Source of the DNA: a virus
Reading direction: 5' to 3' (one strand)
Virus record (IMG/VR): IMGVR_UViG_3300043427_003381
Location: 1-51,130 of that record
Length of the DNA: 51,130 bases
Part shown: positions 15,869 through 51,130 of the stretch, piece by piece
Numbering within the stretch: the stretch's first letter is position 1
How the letters are laid out: every line of letters starts with the position of its first letter
Notes under the pieces: model-generated
Seen by the model: the letters and a program-made list of their open reading frames with translations, nothing else
What the model was told of the DNA's origin: nothing
Database searches by the model: none
Translations under genes and position numbers: made by a program

Positions 15869-17263
15869 ATGGATCCCAGATATTATAAAATTCTTAATGA
15901 TACTTTCAGAACGAATTTAGATGAATCGAACACGGCAATTGAAGAAACTCTAGAATCAATCATTGAGTTGGATGGTTCTAAGGCTCCCTATGATGACATT
16001 ATTTTATCTCTTGATGCAGATATTTTCAATGAAGTAGGAAATGTAAATTCAAAAATTATTGATGTTGCATCTGCATATCAAGATAGGATTAATGTTGGTT
16101 GTAGGACTGATGTATTTTGGAGAGTAACTGGGGTTGCGGGAACTGTTTATACGCTAGTTGCAACCAAATTGTCTCTTGCTGGTTATGCAGGAACCCTTCC
16201 AACAGTAGAATACTTTGATGGAAGCACAATCACATCTTATGATAATTTTGATATTTTTGGATTTGATTCAGAACCGGCATATGGAATCAAATATTATGAC
16301 GAACCACTGACAGAAGACCTTGAAGATACTTTTGTTACAAGTTTTACTGGTATTATTGAGTCGGGATCATCCGAATTAATTACACTATCTCCTGTAGGGT
16401 CTTCCTCAACAATTGGTATTTCCACATCTTCGGGCCAATTAGTCATCTCTTCAAAACAAGATGTTTTACCATCTTCAAGTAATATTATAGGTATTGGAAC
16501 CACTACTCTATCGAGATCTATTCTAGGAATATCTACAGAAACTCCTGTCACAACTCTGACACTTGACTCCATTGCAATTGGTGATGCATCCGCTCCAGAA
16601 TCTGATGGATCTTATGTTACTTTTACCGTCCTTTCTTCAGTATCAGATCTTAATATTGAATATTATGATTTACTTTCAGAAAAGGACCCATCTATTCCAC
16701 AAATTATTGGCATTATTACTTCTGGCAATCTAGGTATAGGTGTTTCAATTCAATATGATAATTCTGGATTTGAACCAAATGTTATTGCTTGGAATCCTGA
16801 TGCTTTTGATCCTGATGCATTTGATGAAGAAAACCCCACCGTCACTACTTCTGAACCTGAAGTTGGTGCTGGTAATTTTTATTTCCCAGTAGGATTTTCT
16901 TCTTATCCAATTACTTTAAGTGGTGAAAGAGTTTCGGTTGGATTTGTGACAACTGTAAATATTAGTCAAATTGCAGGTATTCTTTCGTCAACATCGCCTT
17001 GTCCCACTCAAGAAACTAATTTAACTAATGCAATCAATACATTAAACATTGCGAAGTCTGATATTGCATCTGGTATCAGCACTCTCAATTATAAAATTGA
17101 TGTGTCAAATACTTTTAGAGAACAACGCAAGGAAATTCAATCCGAAATTTGGACTCTAAGACAGCAAATTGCAGAATTCCGTGCAGATATTATTAAATTT
17201 GATAAGGCCCTTAACTTCCTTGGCGTGTCAACGGTGACTGATATAATCTTAGAAACCCCTTGA
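15869..17263 (+). CDS. Virion structural protein with C-terminal coiled coil
   Basis: 464 aa, no family I can name. It starts MDPRYYKILNDTFRTNLDE with a helical N-terminal segment of about 75 residues, followed by a Ser/Thr/Gly/Ile-rich beta region (residues 110-370) containing GIGTT-type turns like those of the fiber genes. The last 75 residues are a clear coiled coil (FREQRKEIQSEIWTLRQQIA). The composition suits a trimeric structural protein of baseplate or fiber. It is the last gene of the hub block; its stop codon overlaps the -35 hexamer of the next promoter. Confidence 0.7.
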   Translation: MDPRYYKILNDTFRTNLDESNTAIEETLESIIELDGSKAPYDDIILSLDADIFNEVGNVNSKIIDVASAYQDRINVGCRTDVFWRVTGVAGTVYTLVATKLSLAGYAGTLPTVEYFDGSTITSYDNFDIFGFDSEPAYGIKYYDEPLTEDLEDTFVTSFTGIIESGSSELITLSPVGSSSTIGISTSSGQLVISSKQDVLPSSSNIIGIGTTTLSRSILGISTETPVTTLTLDSIAIGDASAPESDGSYVTFTVLSSVSDLNIEYYDLLSEKDPSIPQIIGIITSGNLGIGVSIQYDNSGFEPNVIAWNPDAFDPDAFDEENPTVTTSEPEVGAGNFYFPVGFSSYPITLSGERVSVGFVTTVNISQIAGILSSTSPCPTQETNLTNAINTLNIAKSDIASGISTLNYKIDVSNTFREQRKEIQSEIWTLRQQIAEFRADIIKFDKALNFLGVSTVTDIILETP

Positions 17264-38297: not shown

Positions 38298-39545
38298 ATG
38301 CCAAAATGGTTAGGTGGTATATTTGGGAATACGGTTTCTTCTACTGCTGATGGTACTGAAATAAAAGGAGTTTTTAGTTCTAGTGATCGATATTATATGA
38401 AACGAGAGGGGGGTGCGGCATTTGCGACTTATTCTGTATCTCCTTCTACAACATCACTTAATGAAGGTTCATCGGTTACTTTTACTGTTAGTACCTTTAA
38501 CGTTTCTGACGGTACTACTTTATATTGGACTTTAAATACAGTTTCTGGAACCATCAATGCATCTGATTTTACTGGTGGAGCAACTTCTGGTTCTTTCACT
38601 ATTACAAGTAGTTCTGGTTCTGTTGTTCTTACGCTAGCAAATGATTCAACCACAGAAGGTTCAGAATCATTCCAATTACAAGTAAGAAAAGACAGTACTT
38701 TGGGAACTGTTGTTGCAACTAGTTCAACAATAACAATCGGAGATACTTCACTAACTACAGTTACAGCAACTGGTGGAACTGTTATTGATAGTGATGGATT
38801 TAGAATTCACGTCTTTACATCTCCAGGTTCCTTTGTAGTTTCTAATGCAGGTCCGGGAACTGTTGAGTATCTTGTGGTTGCTGGAGGTGGTGGTGGTGGA
38901 ACTGGAGATGCTGGTGGAAGAAATGGTGGTGGAGGTGGTGCCGGTGGTTTTAGAACTGCTACTGGATTTTCCATAACTGCAACCACATATCCTATTACTG
39001 TAGGTGGTGGAGGACCAACAGGAGGTTCTGGTGGTGCTGCTCCTAAGGGAAGTCCTTCAATATTTTCAACAATAACTTCTGCTGGAGGTGGTGGAGGTGC
39101 AGGTGGACTTGTAAGCACAAACGTAGCTGCATCTCCTGGTGGTTCTGGTGGTGGTGGTCAGAATGCATCTGGAGGTAATGGAAATGATCCACCAGTTTCA
39201 CCACCACAAGGAAATGCTGGAGGATCTACTGGAAATGCTTGTGGTGGCGGCGGTGCTGGAGGAGTAGGGTCATCTTCTCCTTCAGGTTCTGGTGGAGTAG
39301 GGTCTCCAATCACTTGGTTACCAGCATCTTATGGAACTCCAGGGCCTGCACCAGGTAGATACTTTGCTGGTGGAGGTGGTGGAGGAATTGCTGGTACTGG
39401 AGGTGCCGGTGGTGGAGGTAACAACATAACACCAGGTACAACAAACACTGGCGGTGGTGGCGGTGGTGGAAGAGGTCCTGGAGGAACTCCTGTCACTGGT
39501 GGTTCTGGTGGTTCCGGAATCGTTGTAATCAGATATCCCATATAA
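38298..39545 (+). CDS. Glycine-rich adhesin with Calx-beta domain
   Basis: 415 aa. N-terminus PKWLGGIFGNTVSS, then a Calx-beta-like domain at about 48-155 (TSLNEGSSVTFTVSTFNVS; DFTGGATSGSFTITS; DSTTEGSESFQLQV). From 158 the glycine-rich adhesin domain begins: GGTVIDSDGFRIHVFTSPGS, then VEYLVVAGGGGGG, with poly-Gly runs to the end GGSGGSGIVVIRYPI. This domain class forms polyglycine sandwich tips that carry host-range loops in T-even-like phages. AGGAGGT precedes the start. It belongs to a group of related adhesins at 41077, 43807 and 49035. Confidence 0.76.
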   Translation: MPKWLGGIFGNTVSSTADGTEIKGVFSSSDRYYMKREGGAAFATYSVSPSTTSLNEGSSVTFTVSTFNVSDGTTLYWTLNTVSGTINASDFTGGATSGSFTITSSSGSVVLTLANDSTTEGSESFQLQVRKDSTLGTVVATSSTITIGDTSLTTVTATGGTVIDSDGFRIHVFTSPGSFVVSNAGPGTVEYLVVAGGGGGGTGDAGGRNGGGGGAGGFRTATGFSITATTYPITVGGGGPTGGSGGAAPKGSPSIFSTITSAGGGGGAGGLVSTNVAASPGGSGGGGQNASGGNGNDPPVSPPQGNAGGSTGNACGGGGAGGVGSSSPSGSGGVGSPITWLPASYGTPGPAPGRYFAGGGGGGIAGTGGAGGGGNNITPGTTNTGGGGGGGRGPGGTPVTGGSGGSGIVVIRYPI

Positions 39546-39550
39546 AATTT

Positions 39551-39558
39551 AATAAATA
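39551..39558 (+). promoter_or_regulatory. Late promoter box AATAAATA
   Basis: 15 bases before the ATG at 39574. The sequence from the box to the ATG is nearly the same as in front of the related fiber gene at 46791. Confidence 0.5.
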
Positions 39559-39573
39559 CTTAGAAAAAAGTAA

Positions 39574-41073
39574 ATGGATAAGACCAGACAATCTGCAAAT
39601 CTGGTTTCGGAAAATAATATTTTTTCCGATATCACTAATAACAGAGTTGGTATAGCAACCACAAATCCAACATCAACACTTCAAGTCGTCGGTGATGCAA
39701 CAATTAGTGGTGTTGTTACTGCATCAAGTTTTGTTGGAAATCTAACTGGTACGGCATCCACAGCAACAGAAGCAGGAACTGCTTATGGACTAACTGGAAG
39801 TCCTAATATTACTGTTGGAACCGTTACTGGTAACTTAACAGGAACTGCTTCTACAGCAACAGAAGCAGGAACTGCTTATGGACTAACCGGAAGTCCTAAT
39901 ATTACTGTTGGTATTGTTACTTTATCAAGTGCGGTTGTTAGTGGAAACGTAAGTATCGCAGGAACTCTTACATACGAAGATGTAACGAATGTAGATTCGA
40001 TTGGGATTGTAACAGCTCGTGCTGGTATTGTTCTTGGACCAACAGCAAATACAATTCAGTTAGGAACAGGAACCACGATTAGTTCTCCAAGTTCTGATAC
40101 ATTTACTGTAAGTACTAATGGTAGTGAGAGAGTTAGGGTTGATTCGAGTGGGAGACTGGGTATTGGCAATACGAGTCCTGATACAAAACTAGATTTAGAT
40201 GGCGCGTTCTTCTTGCGGCCAACATCAGAGTCATTCCCGTCTGAAAATGGCGGGGGCCTAAGGATTAGATCGGACACGTCGACTCTTGAACTACGGGGAT
40301 TACAATGGACACCCAGTGTTGTTTATTACGATATAAATTATCAGGGACTGCAGCATTACTGGAGTGTTAACGGTAGTGAGAAAGCGCGCATCGACAGTTC
40401 CGGAAGATTTGGCTTGGGTACGTCGAGTCCTGGAGCAACTCTTGATGTTTCGGAAACTTCATCGGGCGCAACAGTCACAAGTCTGTTCCTGCGCAACCCT
40501 GCTGCTTTAGCTGCTGGAACTGTTTCTCGTCTTGCAATGACTGCTGTCAATACAGGCAGTCGATTTGCATATATAGATGCTGGAGTCACTGGAGCATCCG
40601 ATAACGGGCATTATTTAGCCTTTGGAACCAACCCTGCTGGGGGTGCCCCGACAGAAAAAGCCCGAATATCATCATCAGGTGGTTTCTCAGTAGGAACCAC
40701 AGCAAACCCTGGAGCAGGAGCAATCTATGCAACAGGAGACATCACTGCATTCTATTCATCAGACATCAGATTAAAGAAAGATATTGAACCAATCTCAGAA
40801 CCCATCAAAAAACTGATGGAGATTTCTGGTGTTACTTATAAGTGGAATGAAGAATATCTGAAAGATAAGGATGTTGATGGATACTTTGTAAGAGAAACTG
40901 AAGTTGGTGTGATTGCACAAGATGTTGAGAAAGTTCTCCCAGAAGTTGTTGCAACTCGTGAGAATGGATATAAGGCAGTTAGATATGAGAAACTGGTTGC
41001 TCTTCTGATTGAAGCAGTTAAAGATCAACAAAAACAAATCGACGAACTGAAAGCAAGATTAGAGGAGGTTTGA
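39574..41073 (+). CDS. Tail fiber with S74 self-cleaving chaperone domain
   Basis: 499 aa. N-terminus DKTRQSANLVSENNIFSDIT is shared with the fiber at 46791. A 31-aa duplication (TASTATEAGTAYGLTGSPNI) lies at 56-117. From about 158 to 385 come classic fiber repeats (VDSSGRLGIGNTSPDTKLDL). The C-terminal ~105 residues are a peptidase S74 intramolecular chaperone: SDIRLKKDI with the Ser396/Lys401 dyad, then GVTYKWNEE, VGVIAQDVEKVLPEVV and a final coiled coil (LIEAVKDQQKQIDELKARLE). It should trimerise, cut itself before Ser396 and be released. Residues 155-385 are richer in G and C than the rest. Confidence 0.85.
   Translation: MDKTRQSANLVSENNIFSDITNNRVGIATTNPTSTLQVVGDATISGVVTASSFVGNLTGTASTATEAGTAYGLTGSPNITVGTVTGNLTGTASTATEAGTAYGLTGSPNITVGIVTLSSAVVSGNVSIAGTLTYEDVTNVDSIGIVTARAGIVLGPTANTIQLGTGTTISSPSSDTFTVSTNGSERVRVDSSGRLGIGNTSPDTKLDLDGAFFLRPTSESFPSENGGGLRIRSDTSTLELRGLQWTPSVVYYDINYQGLQHYWSVNGSEKARIDSSGRFGLGTSSPGATLDVSETSSGATVTSLFLRNPAALAAGTVSRLAMTAVNTGSRFAYIDAGVTGASDNGHYLAFGTNPAGGAPTEKARISSSGGFSVGTTANPGAGAIYATGDITAFYSSDIRLKKDIEPISEPIKKLMEISGVTYKWNEEYLKDKDVDGYFVRETEVGVIAQDVEKVLPEVVATRENGYKAVRYEKLVALLIEAVKDQQKQIDELKARLEEV
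39739..39924 (+). repeat. Two 93-bp direct repeats
   Basis: Copies start at 39739 and 39832; they encode a 31-aa unit and share long identical stretches (for example the part from GCAACAGAAGCAGG onward). Confidence 0.85.
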
Positions 41074-41076
41074 TAA

Positions 41077-42087
41077 ATGGCAACACCTTCAGGTCAGATT
41101 GCATTTTCTCAGGTAAATGCTGAGTTAGGAGTTTCTCCAACATCAACACAAGCAAATATGGGTTCTGCACCTTTTAGAGGTCTTGCAGGTGTTCCTTCTG
41201 GCCAGATTTCGATGAGCAATCTAAGAGGTAAGAGTAGTTTTAGTGCGACTGGTGGAACTGTTATTGATAGTGGAGGATTTCGAATTCACGTCTTTACATC
41301 TCCAGGATCTTTTGTAGTTTCTGGTTCAGGAACTGTAGACTATCTTGTAGTTGCTGGTGGAGGTAGTGGTGGATCTGATGGAGGGGCCGGTGGTGGTGCT
41401 GGAGGATTTAGAACTGCTACTGGATTTCCTGTAACTGCAACCACATATCCAATTACAATTGGTGGAGGTGGAACTGGAGGAACTGGAGGTACAGGTAGTG
41501 ATGGATCTGTCTCCACCTTTTCTACAGTAACTTCTACTGGTGGTGGAGGAGGTGGGTGGTATGCAATTGGAGCAGGAAATGCTGGCCGAGCAGGAGGTTC
41601 TGGTGGTGGAGGAGGTGGTGGAAGTGGCGGTGGTGGGTCCGCAGGAGCAGGAAATACTCCACCAGTATCTCCACCACAAGGAAATCCTGGAGGAGCCGGG
41701 TTTCCTGGAGGTTGTGCTGGTGGATGCCCTAATGCTGGCGGTGGTGGAGCAGGAGCAGCAGGAGCAGCAGGAGGAACTTCTCCCGGAATTCCTGGAGGAA
41801 ATGGAGGTCGAGGTGGTACAGGTTTACCAATCACTTGGTTACCAGCATCTTATGGAACTCCAGGACCTGCACCCGGTAGATACTTTGCTGGTGGAGGAAG
41901 TGGAAATAGTAATAACGGAGCAAATACTCCAGGCGGTGTCGGTGGAGGGGGTAATGGTGGATTTAGAACTTCCGGTCTTGGAAGTCCAGGAACCACAAAT
42001 ACTGGAGGCGGCGGCGGTGGAAGTGATGTAGGAAACCCTAGTGGAAACGGTGGTTCCGGAATAGTCGCAATCAGATATCCAATCTAA
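41077..42087 (+). CDS. Glycine-rich tip adhesin
   Basis: 336 aa. The N-terminal 60 residues (ATPSGQIAFSQVNAELGVSP, then GQISMSNLRGKS) are of the 'SQVN.ELG' type used to join glycine-rich adhesins to the fiber. The rest is the glycine-rich domain: GGTVIDSGGFRIHVFTSPGS, VDYLVVAGGG, poly-Gly stretches with PPVSPPQGN and PGPAPGRYFAGGG loops, ending GGSGIVAIRYPI. Its domain is close to that of the 38298 protein, near-identical over two DNA blocks. It starts four bases after the S74 fiber, so fiber and tip are probably partners. Confidence 0.78.
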   Translation: MATPSGQIAFSQVNAELGVSPTSTQANMGSAPFRGLAGVPSGQISMSNLRGKSSFSATGGTVIDSGGFRIHVFTSPGSFVVSGSGTVDYLVVAGGGSGGSDGGAGGGAGGFRTATGFPVTATTYPITIGGGGTGGTGGTGSDGSVSTFSTVTSTGGGGGGWYAIGAGNAGRAGGSGGGGGGGSGGGGSAGAGNTPPVSPPQGNPGGAGFPGGCAGGCPNAGGGGAGAAGAAGGTSPGIPGGNGGRGGTGLPITWLPASYGTPGPAPGRYFAGGGSGNSNNGANTPGGVGGGGNGGFRTSGLGSPGTTNTGGGGGGSDVGNPSGNGGSGIVAIRYPI

Positions 42088-42090
42088 ATA
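42084..42090 (+). promoter_or_regulatory. Late-promoter-like box CTAAATA
   Basis: Overlaps the adhesin stop and is 13 bases before the ATG at 42104, which leaves little leader; a weak call. Confidence 0.3.
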
Positions 42091-42103
42091 AAACAAAAAC
42101 AAT

Positions 42104-42526
42104 ATGGCTCACTACGCAGAACTGAATGAAAACAATGAAGTAATCTACGTTGCCTATATGGATAACGAGACTATTACTGATGAAAATGACAATGAAGTAG
42201 AAGAACTTGGTATTCAACATCTTCATACTCATCACGGTGCAGATCGTAGATGGGTAAGAACATCATACAGAGGTAACTTCCGCAATAAGTATGCTGGTCT
42301 TGGAGATACTTATAGAGAAGATCTTGATATGTTTATTTCTCCCCAACCATTTGCATCTTGGATTTTGAATGAAACGACAGGTCAGTGGGAAGCACCTACA
42401 CCTCAACCAGAACTTACTGAAGAACAACTAAATGATGAAACATACACCTATTACTATTTCTGGGATGAAGAAACTCAAAGTTGGTCCTTAAATCAAATTG
42501 AAAAACCAACAGAACAATCTGCATAA
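42104..42526 (+). CDS. MAHFAEL-type protein, copy 1 (candidate adhesin assembly partner)
   Basis: 140 aa: MAHYAELNENNEVIYVAYMD, then GADRRWVRTSYRGNFRNKYA, GLGDTYREDLDMFISPQPF, and a Trp-rich end with pairs of aromatic hairpins (TGQWEAPTPQPELTEEQ; WDEETQSWSLNQ). The Trp-rich, W-x-x-P end recalls tail-fiber assembly chaperones of the Tfa type, though no homology can be claimed. It directly follows a glycine-rich adhesin. Two more copies (44646 and 50910) have the same position relative to other adhesins. An alternative is a structural tip protein. Confidence 0.75.
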   Translation: MAHYAELNENNEVIYVAYMDNETITDENDNEVEELGIQHLHTHHGADRRWVRTSYRGNFRNKYAGLGDTYREDLDMFISPQPFASWILNETTGQWEAPTPQPELTEEQLNDETYTYYYFWDEETQSWSLNQIEKPTEQSA

Positions 42527-42543
42527 TTTTTGAGGGAGTTATT

Positions 42544-42888
42544 ATGTTTAACTTATTTCGTCAATTTTTCATCAAAAAACCATACACCTGTTGTATGGAA
42601 CTTCATAACGCTCTTGGTTGTTATATTTCAATTCATCATCCCTCATCAGGTCCGATTGAAGGATACAACCAGTTTTTCTATGAAAATAACTTTATAATTA
42701 TAAGTAATCTAAGAGAAGAACAAAATGTTTCTGATGTTCTCTCTTCCGTTTATTCCTTTGATATGAAGAGTTCAAACATCAAAATCATTAAGGGTAAGAA
42801 AAAAGTTTATCTACCAAATAAAACATTTGTTTCTTTAGATGAGAACTCTGTGTTTGTTTATGATAAAAGTAAAATTAAAATTGTTTGA
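42544..42888 (+). CDS. Hypothetical protein
   Basis: 114 aa, not recognised. It starts MFNLFRQFFIKKPYTCC with a short hydrophobic/basic segment, followed by a soluble alpha/beta part (ALGCYISIHHPSSGPIEGYN) and a Lys-rich end. GAGGGAG lies a few bases before the ATG, a good ribosome-binding site. It separates the first MAHFAEL copy from the collagen-like gene. Confidence 0.66.
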   Translation: MFNLFRQFFIKKPYTCCMELHNALGCYISIHHPSSGPIEGYNQFFYENNFIIISNLREEQNVSDVLSSVYSFDMKSSNIKIIKGKKKVYLPNKTFVSLDENSVFVYDKSKIKIV

Positions 42889-42894
42889 TAAATA
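42887..42894 (+). promoter_or_regulatory. Late promoter box GATAAATA
   Basis: 34 bases before the ATG at 42929, overlapping the stop of the previous gene. Confidence 0.55.
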
Positions 42895-42928
42895 CTTTAA
42901 AAGTAAAGTAAAGTAGTTAATAACACCA

Positions 42929-43807
42929 ATGCCTTCCCTTTCTTCTTTTATAGGTTCATCATACATAGGAGCTCAAGGTGTTCAAGGCATTCAGGGAACA
43001 CAGGGAACACAGGGAATTCAAGGTCTTGATGGTGAATATGCCGCGCAAGGAATACCGGGAACTCAAGGCACTCAAGGTACTACAGGTACTACGGGTGCTC
43101 AAGGCGATACTGGAACTCAAGGTACTGAAGGAACTCAAGGAACTCAAGGTACTGAAGGAACTCAAGGTTTAGAAGGTCCCCAAGGCATTCAAGGTACTGA
43201 AGGAACTCAAGGTACTGAAGGAACTCAAGGAACTCAAGGTTTAGAAGGTCCCCAAGGCACTGAAGGTATTCAAGGCGCTACTGGAACTCAAGGTTTAGAA
43301 GGTCTCCAAGGTACTCAAGGTACTCAAGGTATTCAAGGCCCTCAAGGAACTCAAGGTTTAGAAGGTCTCCAAGGTACTCAAGGTACTCAAGGTATTCAAG
43401 GCCCTCAAGGAACACAAGGAACACAAGGAACACAAGGAACACAAGGAACACAAGGAACACAAGGAACACAAGGAACACAAGGTATTCAAGGTACATTTGG
43501 ACCATCAACAATACCTCAAAACTCACAAACATCGGCATATGCTCTTGCTATTGGTGATGTAGGAAAACATATTTCTATTACTACAGGCGGAGTTACAGTT
43601 AACTCTGGCATATTCAGTGCAGGTGATGCAGTATCCATATACAATAATTCTTCTGGCAATCAAACAATTACTCAAGGCGGATCAGTGACGATGTATCTTG
43701 TTGGAACAGCAACAACTGGTAATAGAACATTAGCACAAAGAGGTGTTGCTACTATTCTTTGTGTTGCTTCAAATACGTTTGTAATCTTCGGAGGAGGTTT
43801 AACCTGA
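42929..43807 (+). CDS. Collagen-like fiber protein (GTQ/GIQ repeats)
   Basis: 292 aa. After PSLSSFIGSSYIGAQG, residues 14-192 are an unbroken G-X-Y series with Y mostly Gln or Glu (GTQ, GIQ, GTE, GLE, GPQ). Proline is rare and never at Y. The last 100 residues form a beta domain (AYALAIGDVGKHISITTGG; GDAVSIYNNSSGNQTITQ) that probably nucleates the trimer. The stop overlaps the next start (TGATG). The repeat tract contains a 63-bp duplication and a perfect 9-bp array, so its length is likely variable between relatives. Confidence 0.8.
   Translation: MPSLSSFIGSSYIGAQGVQGIQGTQGTQGIQGLDGEYAAQGIPGTQGTQGTTGTTGAQGDTGTQGTEGTQGTQGTEGTQGLEGPQGIQGTEGTQGTEGTQGTQGLEGPQGTEGIQGATGTQGLEGLQGTQGTQGIQGPQGTQGLEGLQGTQGTQGIQGPQGTQGTQGTQGTQGTQGTQGTQGTQGIQGTFGPSTIPQNSQTSAYALAIGDVGKHISITTGGVTVNSGIFSAGDAVSIYNNSSGNQTITQGGSVTMYLVGTATTGNRTLAQRGVATILCVASNTFVIFGGGLT
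43282..43407 (+). repeat. 63-bp tandem duplication in the collagen-like gene
   Basis: Copies begin at 43282 and 43345 and look identical or nearly so; they encode the 21-aa unit GTQGLEGLQGTQ followed by GTQGIQGPQ. Confidence 0.85.
43409..43480 (+). repeat. Perfect 9-bp microsatellite, eight GGAACACAA units
   Basis: Eight identical nonamers in a row, each encoding Gly-Thr-Gln. The single repeated codon choice, unlike the mixed codons around, points to recent slippage growth. In-frame by length. Confidence 0.95.
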
Positions 43808-44637
43808 TGTCAATACTACAAAACTTTTTTGCAAGTGCTGCAGCTGCATCTCCAGTTTCTATTGAAGTTCTTATGATGGCTGGCGGTGGTGCAGCAAACA
43901 ATACAAGTACAAGTATGGGTGATGACGGATTCCCATGGGGCGTTGGTGGCGGCGGTGGCGGGGGGGGTTTATATATCTATTCCACTACTTTAGCTCCTGG
44001 GACAAGTAGAACTGTTACTGTTGGTGGTGGTGGTGCCGTTCCAAGTCCAGCTGGATCTAACACCTCATTTACTGGTGCTTCAGATGCTATTGGTGGAGGT
44101 CGCGGTGCGGGTTCCGTCGGCACCGTCTCAACAGTAGGTTTTCCTGGTGGTTCTGGTGGCGGTAGTATAAATTCACCAGCTGGTGGAGCAGGAACTGCTG
44201 GACAAGGAAATTCTGGAGGTTCCGGAACTAGAGGACCTGCGTCTGGCACTGGCGGCGGCGGCGGCGGAAAGGGGGGAGCAGGATCCGCCGGCACCCCAAC
44301 CGTTGGCGGCACTGGTGGAGCTGGATATAATCTATCTACTTTTAGGGGAGGTAGTTCTCTAACGGTTGCTTTTGGTGGTGGCGGTTCTGCTGGGAATTAT
44401 TACGGATTGAATAGTTTTGGAATTAATGGCGATGGCACAACAAATATCAGCCAGGCAGCAAATACTGGTGGCGGTGGTCGTGGAACTGGTGCACCTGGAG
44501 CATCCGGAAGAGTTATTGTGAGATATGCCGGAACAGTTGCAAAGGCAACTGGTGGAACCATTACTACAGCAAATGTCTCTGGAACTGATTATGTAATTCA
44601 CGATTTCACTGCAACTGGAACTTTTACCGTAACTTAA
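43807..44637 (+). CDS. Glycine-rich tip adhesin
   Basis: 276 aa when started at MSILQNFFASAAAASPVSIE (ATG overlaps the previous stop as TGATG); an in-frame ATG at 43759 would add 16 residues inside the collagen-like gene. After a helical start comes VEVLMMAGGG-like text (IEVLMMAGGGAANNTSTSM), then poly-Gly runs, PGTSRTVTVGGGG and an ending with NTGGGGRGTGAPGASGRVIV and a beta hairpin (DYVIHDFTATGTFTVT). It is coupled to the collagen-like fiber, as in a shaft plus tip arrangement, and is followed by the second MAHFAEL copy. Confidence 0.76.
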   Translation: MSILQNFFASAAAASPVSIEVLMMAGGGAANNTSTSMGDDGFPWGVGGGGGGGGLYIYSTTLAPGTSRTVTVGGGGAVPSPAGSNTSFTGASDAIGGGRGAGSVGTVSTVGFPGGSGGGSINSPAGGAGTAGQGNSGGSGTRGPASGTGGGGGGKGGAGSAGTPTVGGTGGAGYNLSTFRGGSSLTVAFGGGGSAGNYYGLNSFGINGDGTTNISQAANTGGGGRGTGAPGASGRVIVRYAGTVAKATGGTITTANVSGTDYVIHDFTATGTFTVT

Positions 44638-44645
44638 TTAAACTT

Positions 44646-45125
44646 ATGGCACACTTCGCAGAATTAGATCCTGATAATGTAGTCACGAGAGTAATCGTTG
44701 TTTCGAATGATGACATTCTAGATGAAAATGGTAATGAGTCTGAACAAAAAGGAATTGAATTTCTGCACAATTTATTCGGACAAGATACTAAATGGATTCA
44801 AACTTCATTTAATGGAAATTTTAGATATAATTTTGCTGGAATAGGAGACACTTATGATCCAGAAAGTGATGTTTTTATTCCTGAAGGATATTCTTATAAT
44901 GAACAATATCAAAGATATTTGCCTCCTATTCCAGAACAACCACATCCTCTTTGGTGGTATGACCCAGATAGATTAAAGTGGAGGCCACCATTTCCAAAAC
45001 CATATGATACATATCAATATGAATGGGATGAATCTATTTCAAATTGGAGGCAAGTTGAAGGGTCCGAAGGTGAAAGAGCGTGGACTCTTGATATGGAGCA
45101 ACCAGTATTCGAAAGAAAATATTAG
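44646..45125 (+). CDS. MAHFAEL-type protein, copy 2
   Basis: 159 aa: MAHFAELDPDNVVTRVIVVS, then GQDTKWIQTSFNGNFRYNFA, GIGDTYDPESDVFIPEGYS and a Trp/Tyr/Pro-rich end (PLWWYDPDRLKWRPPFPKPY; EWDESISNWRQ). Clearly paralogous to 42104 and 50910 in the first 80 residues, less so after. It starts nine bases after the adhesin. Same inferred role as copy 1. Confidence 0.76.
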   Translation: MAHFAELDPDNVVTRVIVVSNDDILDENGNESEQKGIEFLHNLFGQDTKWIQTSFNGNFRYNFAGIGDTYDPESDVFIPEGYSYNEQYQRYLPPIPEQPHPLWWYDPDRLKWRPPFPKPYDTYQYEWDESISNWRQVEGSEGERAWTLDMEQPVFERKY

Positions 45126-45141
45126 AAAAATAATATAAAAG

Positions 45142-45171
45142 TTGACGTATTATGCTATGATAAGTTAAATA
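45142..45171 (+). promoter_or_regulatory. Candidate promoter before the 2OG oxygenase gene
   Basis: TTGACG (45142-45147), 17 bases, TTAAAT (45165-45170), the latter also reading as a late-like TTAAATA. Either host-type or late use is possible. The ATG is at 45183. Weak evidence. Confidence 0.35.
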
Positions 45172-45182
45172 TACAATATATT

Positions 45183-45827
45183 ATGGAAAGAAAAATTAAT
45201 ATTTTAAAAGATCCATTTCCACATTTGATTATAGAAAATTTCTATGATCAAGGGGAATTGGATCTTATTTGGGAAGAATTAAATTTTTTAAATAAACCGG
45301 GAAAACTTTATGATCCTGGCCATGATCATGGTGCGCAAAATCCAGAAACCAAAGAATTTTATACAAAATCAAAAGCAATTGAATTAGAGACCGCTTATAA
45401 CAATATTAATCTCTCAAATATTATTTCAGTTTCTCAGAAACTTTTTAATCATGGATTTTTAAATATTTTTTACGATAAATTTCCACAATATAAAAAAATA
45501 TTATATCCAAATTATTGCAAAACTAAAGTTAGATATTATAAAAACAAAGATTATTATGCACCACATATTGACATTAGACACGATTTTTTAGCTTTTAGTT
45601 ACTTTTATAAAGAACCTAAAAAGTTTTCTGGTGGGGAATTATTTTTCCCAGAATACGATGATTATGAAGTTGAATGCTCTAATAATAGTTTAATATTACT
45701 TCCTTCATATCCAATTCATGGAGTTAAATTAGTTACTATAGATGATAATGATTATTCCTCTGGATATAGTCGATATTGTATCTCTCACTTTTTTGGCATA
45801 GACCATAATACTTTTATTTTAAATTAA
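45183..45827 (+). CDS. 2-oxoglutarate/Fe(II)-dependent oxygenase, prolyl-hydroxylase-like
   Basis: 214 aa. Core features of the double-stranded beta-helix oxygenases: YYAPHIDIRHDF with the H128-x-D130 pair, FSGGELFFPEYDD, LLPSYPIHGVKLV with the distal H179, and SRYCISHFFG with R197 as a candidate 2-oxoglutarate-binding residue. The His-Arg gap is longer than usual because of a YSSGYS-containing loop. Such enzymes hydroxylate Pro, Asn or other residues of proteins, or small molecules. The gene is much more AT-rich than its neighbours and follows collagen-like fibers. Substrate unknown; fiber modification is a hypothesis. Confidence 0.72.
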   Translation: MERKINILKDPFPHLIIENFYDQGELDLIWEELNFLNKPGKLYDPGHDHGAQNPETKEFYTKSKAIELETAYNNINLSNIISVSQKLFNHGFLNIFYDKFPQYKKILYPNYCKTKVRYYKNKDYYAPHIDIRHDFLAFSYFYKEPKKFSGGELFFPEYDDYEVECSNNSLILLPSYPIHGVKLVTIDDNDYSSGYSRYCISHFFGIDHNTFILN

Positions 45828-45839
45828 TACATTTAAATC

Positions 45840-46607
45840 ATGCAAACAGCGTTAAATGCTGGTCAAATATATCATACAGCATACTGTGGTTCTACTTTAA
45901 TGGCATCATTATTGGCAGGATCTTCGACAGTTTATTGTGAACCTCCATGGACCAAGTTATTATTGCAAGACAATCAAGAAGAAATTTTGAATATTTTAGA
46001 AGAACAATTTAAAAAATATGAAGGAAAAATTGTTGTAAAATTTCAAAGTATTCTTTGCTTTGCGTCTAAAAATTTTACTGATAAAAAAATATTTTTACAT
46101 AGAAAGTTGATTCATCATCTATTTAAATATAAATCTTCATCACCCTTAAGGTACGATGATATTTTAATTTATAAGTATCAAATTCATAAAGATCATTGCC
46201 ATCCAGCATTAAAACATCTTCACTTTGAAAGTGATTTAGAAAAGATACTGTTTATTTGGGCAAATAATGTTCATTGGATGTTGGAATCTAATAATGTTTT
46301 ATGGATTGAATCAAATAATTTTTTTAGAAATAAACAAAAAGTTATGAGTGATGTTTGTAATCATTTAGAATTAGATATGGTTACCAACTTTGAATTATCT
46401 AACTTTTATGTGAAAAGTTTTAATCTAAATGGAAATGAACATAAAATTAACAATTTGGAAATTCCTAATTTAGGAACCTCCAAAACTTTATATCCCTCAT
46501 ATGGAATCATTGAAGATGACATGTGTAAGCAATATGATGATATTAATGAATTAATAGAATGGTCACATAAAAATATGCCAACTATATCTAAAGAACTTTT
46601 ACAATAA
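45840..46607 (+). CDS. Sulfotransferase-like P-loop protein
   Basis: 255 aa. The N-terminus IYHTAYCGSTLMASLLAG (residues 10-27) followed by VYCEPPWTKLL is the layout of sulfotransferase-fold proteins: a phosphate-binding loop with G-S-T, helix, then a strand and E-P. The middle has IVVKFQSIL and a His-rich segment, and the rest is helical (NVHWMLESNNVLWIESNNFF). In this class the donor would be PAPS, but I see no second PAPS motif with confidence, so it may be a divergent member. Strongly AT-rich, 12 bases after the oxygenase gene. Sulfation of a glycan or protein is a guess. Confidence 0.5.
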   Translation: MQTALNAGQIYHTAYCGSTLMASLLAGSSTVYCEPPWTKLLLQDNQEEILNILEEQFKKYEGKIVVKFQSILCFASKNFTDKKIFLHRKLIHHLFKYKSSSPLRYDDILIYKYQIHKDHCHPALKHLHFESDLEKILFIWANNVHWMLESNNVLWIESNNFFRNKQKVMSDVCNHLELDMVTNFELSNFYVKSFNLNGNEHKINNLEIPNLGTSKTLYPSYGIIEDDMCKQYDDINELIEWSHKNMPTISKELLQ

Positions 46608-46622
46608 TTGCAAACTACAAAA

Positions 46623-46724
46623 GTGGCCAAAGAAATTCTTTATTATGAGTGGATTTATGATCCAGATACTGAGACTTTCACGGATCCACTAGAACCTGAA
46701 CCTGTAAGCGAAGAAACAACTTGA
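46623..46724 (+). CDS. Possible 33-aa protein with GTG start
   Basis: Reads MAKEILYYEWIYDPDTETF, then an acidic Pro/Glu tail, and stops at TGA 46722-46724. A TTG at 46608 is another possible start. The acidic, Trp/Tyr-rich text resembles the end of the MAHFAEL proteins, so it may be a small stand-alone gene or the remnant of a fourth copy. Ribosome-binding site not clear. Confidence 0.4.
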   Translation: MAKEILYYEWIYDPDTETFTDPLEPEPVSEETT

Positions 46725-46730
46725 TTTTTA

Positions 46731-46755
46731 AGAGGGGTAACACCCTCTATTTTTA
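46731..46755 (+). terminator. Intrinsic terminator
   Basis: AGAGGG (46731-46736) pairs with CCCTCT (46743-46748), loop GTAACA, followed by an A and a run of Ts (46750-46754). It ends the AT-rich insert. Confidence 0.78.
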
Positions 46756-46768
46756 TATAAACTTAATT

Positions 46769-46776
46769 GATAAATA
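46769..46776 (+). promoter_or_regulatory. Late promoter box GATAAATA
   Basis: 14 bases before the ATG at 46791; the leader is nearly the same as that at 39551-39573. Confidence 0.5.
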
Positions 46777-46790
46777 CTTATAAAAAGTAA

Positions 46791-48089
46791 ATGAATAAGA
46801 CCAGAAGATCTGCAAACCTGGTTTCTAAAAATAATATTTTTTCTAGTATTACCAACCATAGAGTTGGTATAGGAACCACAATACCACAATATCAACTTGA
46901 TGTTCTTGGTGATATTAATTTCAGCGGATCCTTAAATCAAGGTGGTAGTTCATTTGTTGCATCTAGATGGACTGCTGGAACTGGAGATGATATTTACAGA
47001 TTAAGTGGTGACGTTGGCATAGGAACCACAAATCCTCAATATAGCCTTGATGTTCTTGGAGATATTAACTTCACAGGGACCTTTAGACAAAACGGTAGTG
47101 CATTTGTTGCATCTAGATGGACTGCTGGAACTGGTGACGATATTTATAGACTTAATGGTGATGTTGGAATTGGAATATCAAATCCCCAATATAGCCTTGA
47201 TGTTCTTGGTGATATTAATTTTACAGGGACCTTTAGACAAAACGGTAGTGAATTTGTTGCATCTAGTGTTGCAACCAATTCTGTTGGTCTTGGAACTCAT
47301 ACTTATGGTGACTATGTAAAAGATATTATAGGAACTGCAAATCAAATTACAGTTACTTCGGGAACTGGTGAGGGTTCTTCTCCAACACTAAGCATACCAA
47401 ATCAATTTACAGCACCACAAGACGTTAGGATTACAAGAGATCTTCAAGTTGATCGTGATTTAAATGTAAATGGTAATATCACAATTGGTGGTACATCAGC
47501 TACATTATTCACCACAGAATTAAAAGTTTATGATGCTGATATTGTTCTTGGTATAAGAACTGATGAAAGTGGTAATGATATCTCAACAGATAATACAGCT
47601 AATCACGGTGGTATCGCTGTAGCATCAACAGAAGGAACACCACTTATCAGTCTTTATGATGTTGGAATAGGAGAAACAAATCCAGCAACATATAAAAAAA
47701 TTATGTGGTTTAAGTCCGGTACTTTTGCTGGACTTGGAACTGATGCTTGGTTAATTAACTATGGTGTTGGTATTGGAAGCACCCAAGTACCTGATGGAGT
47801 AAGACTTGCTGCCGGATCAGTTCAATTTACCGAGAGTGATTTATCGGTTGTCAGAAATATTAATGCAACTGGTATTGTTACTGCTACCAGTTTTAGTGGT
47901 GATGGAAGTTCTATTACTGGTATTGCTCGCGGCGGTGGTTCTGACGAAATCTTTTATGAAAACGGACAGACAGTAACCACAGACTATACAATCAGCACAT
48001 CCAAAAATGCGATGAGTGCAGGGCCCATTGGTATTGCAACAGGAATTACAGTCACTATTCCATCAGGTTCTACCTGGACCATCGTATAA
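46791..48089 (+). CDS. Tail fiber with three 50-aa repeats
   Basis: 432 aa. N-terminus NKTRRSANLVSKNNIFSSIT is paralogous to the S74 fiber at 39574. Residues 25-160 contain three 50-aa repeats (VGIGTTNPQYSLDVLGDINF, then ASRWTAGTGDDIYRL). Residues 230-360 hold the shared fiber module (YDADIVLGIRTDESG; HGGIAVASTEGTPLI; IMWFKSGTFAG). It ends with ARGGGSDEIFYENGQ and TSKNAMSAGPIGIATG, a beta domain that terminates many marine-phage fibers. No chaperone domain. Confidence 0.77.
   Translation: MNKTRRSANLVSKNNIFSSITNHRVGIGTTIPQYQLDVLGDINFSGSLNQGGSSFVASRWTAGTGDDIYRLSGDVGIGTTNPQYSLDVLGDINFTGTFRQNGSAFVASRWTAGTGDDIYRLNGDVGIGISNPQYSLDVLGDINFTGTFRQNGSEFVASSVATNSVGLGTHTYGDYVKDIIGTANQITVTSGTGEGSSPTLSIPNQFTAPQDVRITRDLQVDRDLNVNGNITIGGTSATLFTTELKVYDADIVLGIRTDESGNDISTDNTANHGGIAVASTEGTPLISLYDVGIGETNPATYKKIMWFKSGTFAGLGTDAWLINYGVGIGSTQVPDGVRLAAGSVQFTESDLSVVRNINATGIVTATSFSGDGSSITGIARGGGSDEIFYENGQTVTTDYTISTSKNAMSAGPIGIATGITVTIPSGSTWTIV
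46863..47270 (+). repeat. 150-bp tandem repeats in a fiber gene
   Basis: Units start at 46863, 47013 and 47163; the third breaks off after about 105 bp. They encode the 50-aa fiber repeat and differ by scattered, mostly silent, changes. Confidence 0.85.
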
Positions 48090-48103
48090 GGAGGTAAAAA
48101 CAA

Positions 48104-48586
48104 ATGCCCGTATCAATTAATGGAGATGGTATTGTCTCTGGAGTTACTACCTTTGTTAATACTACAACACCTTTCACTTTTGTAGGTGTTACTACTTTTG
48201 GTTCTATTGAGGCTAATGCTATTAATGCTGGTGTTGTTACTTCTACAAGTTTTGTTGGCAATGTTACTGGTAATGCCACTGGACTATCAGGAACACCAAA
48301 TCTAAATGTTGGTGTTGTTACTGCATCAAGTTTTGTTGGCAATGTTACCGGTAACGTAACAGGAAATGCAACAGGATTAAGTGGAACTCCAAATCTAAAT
48401 GTTGGTGTTGTTACTGCATCAAGTTTTGTTGGCAATGTTACTGGTAATGCCACTGGACTATCAGGAACTCCAAATCTAAATGTTGGTGTTGTTACTGCTA
48501 CTTCTTATTATGGCTCAGGGGCCAATCTTACTAATTTAAATATACCTGCAGGTTTCAATGAACTTGATGCTGCTTTGTTTAACTAA
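48104..48586 (+). CDS. Short fiber-repeat protein
   Basis: 160 aa made almost wholly of repeats: GVVTASSFVGNVTGNATGLS with SGTPNLNV, in units of 27 and 31 residues. N-terminus PVSINGDGIVSGVTTFVN, C-terminus YYGSGANLTNLNIPAG then NELDAALFN. The repeat is the same kind as in the S74 fiber (TASSFVGNLTGTAST). AAGGAGG precedes the start. Likely a short shaft piece or adaptor between the fibers encoded next to it. Confidence 0.75.
   Translation: MPVSINGDGIVSGVTTFVNTTTPFTFVGVTTFGSIEANAINAGVVTSTSFVGNVTGNATGLSGTPNLNVGVVTASSFVGNVTGNVTGNATGLSGTPNLNVGVVTASSFVGNVTGNATGLSGTPNLNVGVVTATSYYGSGANLTNLNIPAGFNELDAALFN
48230..48490 (+). repeat. Tandem 81/93-bp repeats
   Basis: The motif GGTGTTGTTACT starts at 48230, 48311, 48404 and 48485, giving spacings of 81, 93 and 81 bp; the 93-bp unit carries an extra 12 bp (GTAACGTAACAG). 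Confidence 0.85.
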
Positions 48587-48589
48587 ATA
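48583..48589 (+). promoter_or_regulatory. Late-promoter-like box CTAAATA
   Basis: Overlaps the stop of the repeat protein and is 18 bases before the ATG at 48608. Confidence 0.4.
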
Positions 48590-48607
48590 GAAATAAAAGA
48601 TGTAAAG

Positions 48608-49021
48608 ATGTCTCTTAGAAGAACTAAATTATTACACATTCAGTCAGTTACAGGTATTGCAACAGTTGGTATTTTTACTGTTGGAACTACCCAAACTGCT
48701 GGTGGTGTTGGTATTGCATCAACTACTTATCTGCGTGGTGTAGTGATGCATAATACAGGTCTTTCAACAGCAACTTCATCACTCTACATTTATCCAAACA
48801 GCGTTTCATCTCCAGTAACTGGGGTTGGCCAAACAGCATACCGATTATCAAGAATTGATTTGAGATCTAATGAAACATTCTTCTTTGAGACAAATTATCC
48901 GATAGTTCTTGGGCACGGCGATAAGGTAGTTGTAGAAATTACACAACCAGCAGTTACAGTTGGTGGTGCTGGAATTGGTAGTGCTGTAAATTACCAAATA
49001 CTTGGCGACACTGATATTTGA
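48608..49021 (+). CDS. Small beta-rich fiber-associated protein (type 3)
   Basis: 137 aa: SLRRTKLLHIQSVTGIATVG, then STTYLRGVVMHNTGLSTATS, SLYIYPNSVSSPVTG, SRIDLRSNETFFFETNYPIV and LGHGDKVVVEITQPAVTV. The final G-x-x-D-K-V-x-V element parallels E-S-G-D-K-L of the 34158 protein and E-S-D-E-I of the 37914 protein. Beta-sandwich by appearance. Located between a fiber and a glycine-rich adhesin. Confidence 0.73.
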   Translation: MSLRRTKLLHIQSVTGIATVGIFTVGTTQTAGGVGIASTTYLRGVVMHNTGLSTATSSLYIYPNSVSSPVTGVGQTAYRLSRIDLRSNETFFFETNYPIVLGHGDKVVVEITQPAVTVGGAGIGSAVNYQILGDTDI

Positions 49022-49034
49022 GGAGGATAGATAA

Positions 49035-50876
49035 ATGGGCGTAAGATCTACTGATTTAGCATCATCTTTCTTTGATCGTTTCTTGAGAACTCAGAATGGG
49101 GGAACTAATCCACCCAATACAGGATTAACAGCAACTGGTGGTGTTATTAGTGATTATACAACTCCTCCAGGAGCAGTTTATAGAGCACACATTTTTACTT
49201 CATCAGGCACTTTTATTGTAAGTTCTATTGGTGATTTTGATGCTACTGTAGAGTATCTCGTAGTTGCTGGTGGTGGGTCTGGCGGAGATACTGGTGGTGG
49301 TGGTGCTGGTGGATTTAGAACTAATGTATCCGGACATCCATTAGCAGGATCAGCATTTCCAGTTAGTATTTCTTCATACCCAGTAGTTGTTGGTGCAGGT
49401 GCTGCTCCCGGAGGGGGGGATACCTTACGGGGTGTTAATGGCAATCCTTCTACTTTTTCTACAATAACTTCTGCTGGTGGTGGAGGAGGAGGGGGAGAAA
49501 GTGCCCCGATTTCTCCTGGTTTGTCTGGTGGATCTGGTGGTGGGGGTGGATATAATTCGCCAGGATCTTTTGGATCTGGTAATACTCCACCAACATCACC
49601 CCCACAAGGAAATCCTGGCGGAAACGGAGGAACATCTGCTTCCGGTGCTGGGGGAGGTGGTGCTGGCGGCGCTGGTGGTAATGCTTCTGGTGGAACTGCT
49701 GGCGCCGGTGGAATAGGATCTCAAATATCTATTACTGGAATCACTACTTATTATGCAGGAGGTGGCGGAGGAGCATCATCTCCAGGAGTTGCCGGTGCAG
49801 GAGGATTAGGTGGAGGTGGAAATGGTGAGCAGGAGAATGCTGGTGCCGGTGCTGGACAAGAAAACACTGGCGGTGGCGGTGGAGGATTTTGGGGGCAGAA
49901 TCTCCCACTGGGAAATACTGGCAACGGTGGTTCCGGAATCGTAGTAGTCCGTTACCAGATAGGACAATTGACAGCAACTGCAAAAGCAACTGGTGGTGCT
50001 ATAAGTTACTTTGGTGGTAAGACAATTCATACCTTTACGAGTTCTGGTACTTTTACCGTTACTAGCCCAACATTAACTTCTGCGGAATACCTGATGGTTG
50101 GTGGCGGCGCTGGTGGAGGTGGAAGACACGGTGGTGGAGGTGGTGCTGGTGGAATGATTTTTGGAAGTCGTCCACTGTCAGTAACTTCATATCCTATTGT
50201 TATTGGATCTGGTGGAATAGGCGTAGAGGGATATTCAAATGGTGGCAATGGGGGTAATACAACTTTTGGCGGAGAAACTGCTAATGGAGGAGGTGGTGGT
50301 GGATATTACAGAGATTCACCTTATGCCGGAATAGCAGGAGCTGCTGGTGGTTCTGGTGGTGGCGGTGGATTTGGTCCCGGTGGTAGTGGTGGAGCATCTA
50401 ATCAACCAGCAGGAACATTTGGAACTGCATATGGATTTGGTGGGGGAACTGCAAGTACGAACAATCCTCCTCTAATTTGTGGAGGTGGTGGAGGTGCTGG
50501 TGCAGCAGGAAATCCTTTTACTACTGCCAACGGAGCAGGAGGTGCTGGTAGATTATGGCCAGTTACTGGTTATTACTACGCTGGAGGTGGAGGAGCATCT
50601 TCGTGGGAAGCAAATGCAGGTAATGGTGGAGTAGGTGGTGGAGGTGGAGGTAATGTTGGAAACTTTGGTTCTGTAGGTGTTGGTGGAACAGGAGGATTAT
50701 TTGATGGTGAGAATGGATTACTTTCTGGAAATGATGGTGTATATCGTAGAGGTGGTAATGGAGCTCAATCTACCGGTGGTGGTGGAGGAGGAGGAGGACA
50801 ATCTGCATATCTTTCATATAGATCATCAGGTGGTAATGGTGGTTCCGGAATCGTCATCATCGCATATCCTTCATAA
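49035..50876 (+). CDS. Double glycine-rich adhesin
   Basis: 613 aa. N-terminus GVRSTDLASSFFDRFLRTQN, then two full glycine-rich domains in series. Domain 1 (about 35-310) begins AVYRAHIFTSSGTFIVSSIG with VEYLVVAGGG and ends GGSGIVVVRYQIG. Domain 2 (about 318-613) begins GGKTIHTFTSSGTFTVTSPT with AEYLMVGGGAGGG and ends GGSGIVIIAYPS. The first six residues of each end (GGSGIV) match the ends of the other adhesins at DNA level. GAGGA precedes the start. The only adhesin here with two tips, presumably from domain duplication. Confidence 0.78.
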   Translation: MGVRSTDLASSFFDRFLRTQNGGTNPPNTGLTATGGVISDYTTPPGAVYRAHIFTSSGTFIVSSIGDFDATVEYLVVAGGGSGGDTGGGGAGGFRTNVSGHPLAGSAFPVSISSYPVVVGAGAAPGGGDTLRGVNGNPSTFSTITSAGGGGGGGESAPISPGLSGGSGGGGGYNSPGSFGSGNTPPTSPPQGNPGGNGGTSASGAGGGGAGGAGGNASGGTAGAGGIGSQISITGITTYYAGGGGGASSPGVAGAGGLGGGGNGEQENAGAGAGQENTGGGGGGFWGQNLPLGNTGNGGSGIVVVRYQIGQLTATAKATGGAISYFGGKTIHTFTSSGTFTVTSPTLTSAEYLMVGGGAGGGGRHGGGGGAGGMIFGSRPLSVTSYPIVIGSGGIGVEGYSNGGNGGNTTFGGETANGGGGGGYYRDSPYAGIAGAAGGSGGGGGFGPGGSGGASNQPAGTFGTAYGFGGGTASTNNPPLICGGGGGAGAAGNPFTTANGAGGAGRLWPVTGYYYAGGGGASSWEANAGNGGVGGGGGGNVGNFGSVGVGGTGGLFDGENGLLSGNDGVYRRGGNGAQSTGGGGGGGGQSAYLSYRSSGGNGGSGIVIIAYPS

Positions 50877-50879
50877 ATA
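50872..50879 (+). promoter_or_regulatory. Late promoter box CATAAATA
   Basis: 30 bases before the ATG at 50910, overlapping the adhesin stop. Confidence 0.55.
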
Positions 50880-50909
50880 TTCAAAACGAACATTACAGAT
50901 AATTAACCA

Positions 50910-51130
50910 ATGGCACATTTCGCACAACTTGATGAAAACAATATAGTTACTCAAGTCATTGTTGTGAGTAACGAAGATACTTCCGACTCAAACGGAACAG
51001 AAATAGAAGAAATTGGAATTGGTTTCTGTAAAAAACTTCTTGGTGCTAATACAAAATGGAAGCAAACCTCATACAACAACAATATGAGAGTTCGTTATGC
51101 TGGTATTGGTTATTCTTATAATGAAGAACT
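50910..51130 (+). CDS. MAHFAEL-type protein, copy 3 (cut by the window end)
   Basis: 73 codons are visible and open to the edge: MAHFAQLDENNIVTQVIVVS, then GANTKWKQTSYNNNMRVRYA and GIGYSYNEE. It is paralogous to 42104 and 44646, and as in those cases it follows a glycine-rich adhesin. The Trp-rich C-terminus would lie beyond the window. Confidence 0.8.
   Translation, partial: MAHFAQLDENNIVTQVIVVSNEDTSDSNGTEIEEIGIGFCKKLLGANTKWKQTSYNNNMRVRYAGIGYSYNEE

Follow-up and report, generated by a model that had tools for sequence, protein, structure and literature searches.

The tail fibre gp24 of phage Pam3 goes largely into inclusion bodies when produced alone and becomes soluble in the presence of a small chaperone, gp25; both form the complex solved in 7YPX, and gp24 is found in Pam3 virions, where gp25 was not detected (PMC9608196). 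Tfa of phage Mu (5YVQ), a small protein whose gene follows that of the fibre, stays instead on the mature fibre (PMC9608196, PMC10579305). In the Alteromonas phage V22, gp26 depends on gp27 to become functional (PMC7289586), and the chaperones of V22 and A5, the latter with a beta-hairpin extension, have been proposed as transient caps (PMC10579305). In these marine phages a fibre and the chaperone encoded downstream of it (gp26/gp27 in V22, gp8/gp9 in A5) are shared as a module (PMC7289586, PMC10579305).

The DNA analyzed here, a viral stretch of 51,130 nt (IMG/VR record IMGVR_UViG_3300043427_003381; hereafter the window), contains three repeats of a glycine-rich adhesin gene followed by a gene for a small protein, here called MAHFAEL. 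The original prediction was that these pairs may be an undescribed adhesin/chaperone (or adhesin/cap) system. The adhesin/chaperone (or cap) part is supported by gene linkage, by an exchange between two related phages and by modelled folds, while "undescribed" proved too strong, because Pam3 gp24/gp25 is a described case of the same arrangement (PMC9608196), and a chaperone for each adhesin was not found. The fibre/chaperone principle and the PHROG and Pfam families involved are thus known, and what is added is the pairing and the assignment of MAHFAEL as a chaperone. No description of the MAHFAEL family, its breadth, its C-terminal architecture or the presence of several cassettes per genome was found in the literature searched, which included few subscription papers.

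The tail-fibre block of a cyanophage

A tail-fibre block occupies the 3' part of the window and encodes four PF21722 glycine-rich proteins (Table 1). Three of them are immediately followed by a MAHFAEL gene, as originally read from the sequence, and each of these three adhesins lies, as also anticipated, downstream of a fibre-type gene, two small genes (48104 and 48608) intervening in the case of pair 3. The adhesins of all three pairs score above the cut-off of PF21722 (Gly_rich_2) and are classed as gp24-type glycine-rich tips, with a putative role in receptor binding. The MAHFAEL proteins are members of phrog_7759 by profile match; proteins of the window also score as members of phrog_2295, and neither PHROG entry carries a function. 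The Gly domain of the fourth glycine-rich protein is 69% identical to that of the pair 1 adhesin; this protein has no accompanying MAHFAEL, and neither have most of the glycine-rich proteins in phage Bellamy, which argues against one chaperone per adhesin. Scans for promoters and terminators performed no better than on shuffled sequences.

Table 1. Genes of the tail-fibre block (positions in the window)
Position	Strand	Feature	Evidence and remarks
38298..39545	+	Fourth glycine-rich tip protein, 415 aa	PF21722, E 8.7e-20; no MAHFAEL after it
39574..41073	+	Tail fibre with C-terminal S74 intramolecular chaperone, 5' of pair 1	Peptidase_S74, E 7.6e-16; tail fibre PHROGs
41077..42087	+	Pair 1 adhesin, glycine-rich tip, 336 aa	PF21722; residues 58-336 modelled
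42104..42526	+	Pair 1 MAHFAEL protein, 140 aa, proposed tip chaperone	phrog_7759, E 9.4e-41
42929..43807	+	Collagen-like fibre, 292 aa, before pair 2	PF01391, E 3.4e-29
43807..44637	+	Pair 2 adhesin, glycine-rich tip, 276 aa	PF21722, E 2.4e-13
44646..45125	+	Pair 2 MAHFAEL protein, 159 aa	phrog_7759, E 7.3e-37
45183..45827	+	2OG-Fe(II) oxygenase-like gene beside pair 2	phrog_61, E 2.1e-14; PF13640 below cut-off
46791..48089	+	Fibre-like gene 5' of pair 3	Repeats resemble other fibres; without confident Pfam family
49035..50876	+	Pair 3 adhesin, two glycine-rich domains, 613 aa	PF21722, two stretches, E 7e-35
50910..51130	+	Pair 3 MAHFAEL protein, cut by the end of the window	phrog_7759, E 1.2e-27; full 132 aa in L039:2312-2710 (G001)

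A near-identical IMG/VR record of 174 kb (99.9-100% identity to the window where compared, and no difference over 48599-51130) has the same three MAHFAEL genes, the third one complete, and no fourth copy. This record carries two Photo_RC genes (psbA/psbD type), and the phage is therefore a cyanophage; a search of the DNA of named phages at near identity gave no match. The collagen-like fibre has 289 aa in the longer record, a repeat-length difference from the window. Beyond the 3' end of the window, the 174-kb record encodes a Tfa-like protein (L039:12508-13176; weak Phage_tail_APC match, and phrog_4912, tail fibre assembly) directly before a further glycine-rich protein (L039:13166-14224), which suggests that this phage also employs a classical chaperone. 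The ORF adjoining the oxygenase-like gene (45840-46607, 255 aa) matched nothing in PHROGs or Pfam.

Linkage of MAHFAEL genes to glycine-rich tips

Two samples of 80 IMG/VR loci each, with some overlap, were picked by MAHFAEL sequence alone, so that the neighbouring genes had no influence on the choice; a profile of the N-terminal domain was too variable for scanning, and the second sample came from a scan with one N-domain sequence. Gene calling relied on a simple script, and GGGG runs served to recognize glycine-rich ORFs. Where a MAHFAEL gene had four or more genes upstream of it, a glycine-rich ORF lay within the nearest four in 58/60 and 36/40 cases in the two samples (89/94 pooled without duplicates), compared with 340 of 1213 other genes of the same loci (28%), and it was immediately adjacent to 76 of 129 MAHFAEL genes versus 103 of 1592 other genes (6.5%). 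The five loci of 94 without such an ORF go against a tip chaperone. An early count of 76/76 within five genes was biased by contig ends and has been replaced by the pooled figure. The association is thus far above chance, MAHFAEL genes were not commonly found far from adhesins (the observation that would have spoken against the original prediction), and the gene order, directly downstream of a fibre or tip gene, is that of tail fibre assembly chaperones. The pairing is also present in every named phage examined, across several host groups, including Bellamy, Greip, S-SM1, S-RSM4, HTVC008M/023P/025P/033P, CRP-143, CRP-207, Melnitz and phiPsal1; in P-RSM4, S-SSM5, S-CAM8 and S-MS29 tip and MAHFAEL are separated by three genes, among them those of a carbamoyltransferase and a 2OG oxygenase. 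In the Pontimonas phage phiPsal1 the glycine-rich tip gene (L131:4063-4902; about 15914-16753 in MG835450) is missing from the annotation, phiPsal1_022 being called over it in another frame. The 15 MAHFAEL relatives in contigs of bacterial or archaeal genomes all lie within metagenome bins, so the family looks viral.

A MAHFAEL protein could instead act on the upstream fibre or another tail protein and be a mere passenger beside the glycine-rich gene. Some loci have two or three genes between the glycine-rich gene and MAHFAEL, and in L146, L185 and L192 no glycine-rich gene comes before MAHFAEL, both of which would suit a passenger; however, the other neighbours vary from locus to locus and the glycine-rich gene is the constant one. 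A further argument comes from Melnitz-2 and Melnitz-3, near-identical phages of Methylophilales whose DNA is 99.7% identical as far as a position within gene 175, diverges from there over a block of about 2.5 kb in one and 1.9 kb in the other, and returns to 98.6% identity. The N-terminal anchor encoded by gene 175 is kept in both phages. The Melnitz-2 version has a glycine-rich tip at its other end, and the MAHFAEL gene 176 comes next; the Melnitz-3 version has a non-glycine tip instead, and the next gene encodes an 85-aa protein of a different family. Since the exchange replaces both together, the MAHFAEL gene travels with the glycine-rich tip, and it is tied to this domain, not to the conserved anchor, making a passenger role very improbable. 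According to the published host ranges, the Melnitz variants do not differ on the strains tested (PMC9004378), and hence the swap has no known phenotype. One of the few exceptions to the linkage, L185, has a non-glycine-rich tip followed by a tandem of short MAHFAEL relatives, 71 and 89 aa in length (L185:3786-4252).

Genes for 2OG-Fe(II) oxygenases (PF13759/PF13640) are found beside or between tip and MAHFAEL in about one quarter of the surveyed loci (for example, L016:5324-5944), often accompanied by a phrog_21526 protein of about 84 aa. MAHFAEL might accordingly belong to a tip-modification module and present the adhesin to the neighbouring oxygenase for hydroxylation. PF13759 oxygenases that separate MAHFAEL from the tip in many loci as well as in DSL-LC04, the oxygenase-like gene adjoining pair 2 in the window, and the presence of an oxygenase within four genes upstream of 26 of 94 MAHFAEL genes, as against 14.5% of other genes, are consistent with such a role. 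This enrichment is only about two-fold, however, and some three quarters of the MAHFAEL genes have no oxygenase within that distance, so that presentation for hydroxylation can hardly be their function.

Modelled folds of the two partners

The pair 1 MAHFAEL protein was modelled with AlphaFold2 using 53 relatives (pLDDT 94, pTM 0.77). The model has a beta-beta-alpha-beta domain of the gp25/Tfa type (residues 1-80), followed by Trp-rich beta-hairpins (residues 81-135, approximately), of which other members of the family, 86 to 198 aa long, have fewer or more. Among 72 re-aligned PDB chains, the best match was 7ypx_a (1.8 Å over 55 residues; Z 6.0, which is moderate and below the level at which a common arrangement could be ruled out). 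This chain of 162 aa is taken as gp25 from its length and the published description (PMC9608196), and the match covers gp25 residues 3-57, the whole fibre-binding domain. Tfa of Mu (5yvq_B) came second, with Z 2.7. An N-terminal fibre-binding beta-sandwich in MAHFAEL is thus indicated by moderate model matches to gp25 and Mu Tfa, plain Foldseek of the model against the PDB having given no significant match. Searching PDB sequences with MAHFAEL profiles, or with individual proteins of the family, yielded no meaningful match and no link to a solved chaperone. A helical trimerisation domain (Phage_tail_APC/DUF4376-like) was not seen in the model, which has beta-hairpins without a Pfam match after residue 80, and MAHFAEL is for this reason not filed in Tfa/DUF4376.

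The modelled domain of the pair 1 adhesin (41248-42084; pLDDT 88, pTM 0.88) found Pam3 gp24 itself as its best PDB match (7ypx_A, Z 15.6, 177 residues), with further matches to a tail-tip chain of Bxb1 and the glycine-rich domains of ALK and LTK; PDB sequence searches with the adhesins, which are of low complexity, gave no meaningful match. Together with the PF21722 score, the match to gp24 indicates a TNF-like and glycine-rich fold. That the models of two neighbours should separately pick out both partners of one solved complex is the strongest single argument for a tip chaperone; it is weakened by the moderate Z score of the MAHFAEL match, the Foldseek result and the missing link in sequence.

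The two folds liken the pairs to Pam3 gp24/gp25, in which a TNF-like and glycine-rich tip fibre also comes with a small chaperone. Pam3 gp25 differs in having a C-terminal helical trimerisation domain and a Tfa-like sequence, whereas in MAHFAEL there are Trp-rich beta-hairpins, its sequence shows no detectable similarity to that of gp25, and several pairs occur in one genome. Tfa of Mu is similar in gene position and, weakly, in its N-terminal domain, but it serves a different fibre and has helices and a C-terminal domain not seen in MAHFAEL. The chaperones of V22 and A5, unlike MAHFAEL, carry DUF4376, and the likeness to these systems lies in the module of a fibre and its downstream chaperone.

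MAHFAEL could also be a structural subunit of the tip, either a stable cap or an accessory receptor binder that remains on the fibre as Mu Tfa does. Linkage and swap would also fit such a component, and the Trp-rich hairpins could form a binding surface; however, the closest structural match, Pam3 gp25, was not detected in virions in which gp24 is found (PMC9608196), and we regard a permanent subunit as rather unlikely. The three MAHFAEL genes of the window have no Shine-Dalgarno site and all four adhesin genes have strong ones, a contrast that would also go against a stoichiometric subunit but is given little weight, because it does not hold in other loci: the sites of 134 MAHFAEL genes elsewhere are, if anything, stronger than average, and unequal dosage was discarded as an interpretation. 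The virion proteome of S-SM1, one of the phages with the pairing, has been published (PMC3037559); the labels in GenBank give no indication of which proteins were detected.

A putative chaperone of glycine-rich tips

The pairing, the co-inheritance and the modelled folds lead us to propose that MAHFAEL is an intermolecular tail-fibre chaperone, and possibly a transient cap as well, for the glycine-rich tip encoded just upstream, with a probability of roughly three in four. Its N-terminal domain (residues 1-80, approximately) would be the counterpart of the beta-sandwich with which Pam3 gp25 and Mu Tfa grip the fibre, and would support the nascent TNF-like/glycine-rich domain laterally during folding and trimerisation. 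By analogy with Pam3, it may grip the intertwined glycine-rich distal part while the three subunits come into register, and then leave, so that MAHFAEL would bind the tip, assist its folding and be released from the virion. The C-terminal Trp-rich hairpins, variable in number, would stand at the place of the helical trimerisation domain of known chaperones, which they might replace, or might contact the tip.

Matched adhesin/MAHFAEL pairs were considered and dropped as a claim, because sequence co-variation between the two is too weak (Mantel r 0.22, a value that the highest among 499 permutations barely attained). MAHFAEL proteins can be 80% identical while the adjoining tips are much less alike. 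Strict one-to-one specificity is for both reasons unproven. Both observations are compatible with a chaperone whose grip is on a conserved region of the tip, away from the variable end.

A bolder proposal is that MAHFAEL constitutes a new structural class of tip chaperone, in which a modular array of Trp-hairpins replaces the trimerisation helices, and that in many phages an inserted 2OG-Fe(II) oxygenase hydroxylates the tip during its folding. We consider this combination improbable; if true, it would mean that there are phages with post-translationally modified receptor binders.

As a tip chaperone, MAHFAEL would give a candidate function to a family annotated as "hypothetical" in many phages that infect cyanobacteria, SAR11, roseobacters, methylotrophs and freshwater bacteria, and its presence would mark the gene just upstream as a probable receptor-binding tip. 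Tip and chaperone would move together as a cassette, and one phage could therefore carry several receptor-binding tips, as may be the case here. A tip with its folding helper would be a recognizable unit that helps to predict host-recognition genes in metagenomes, and the pairing tells which gene to co-express in studies of such tips.
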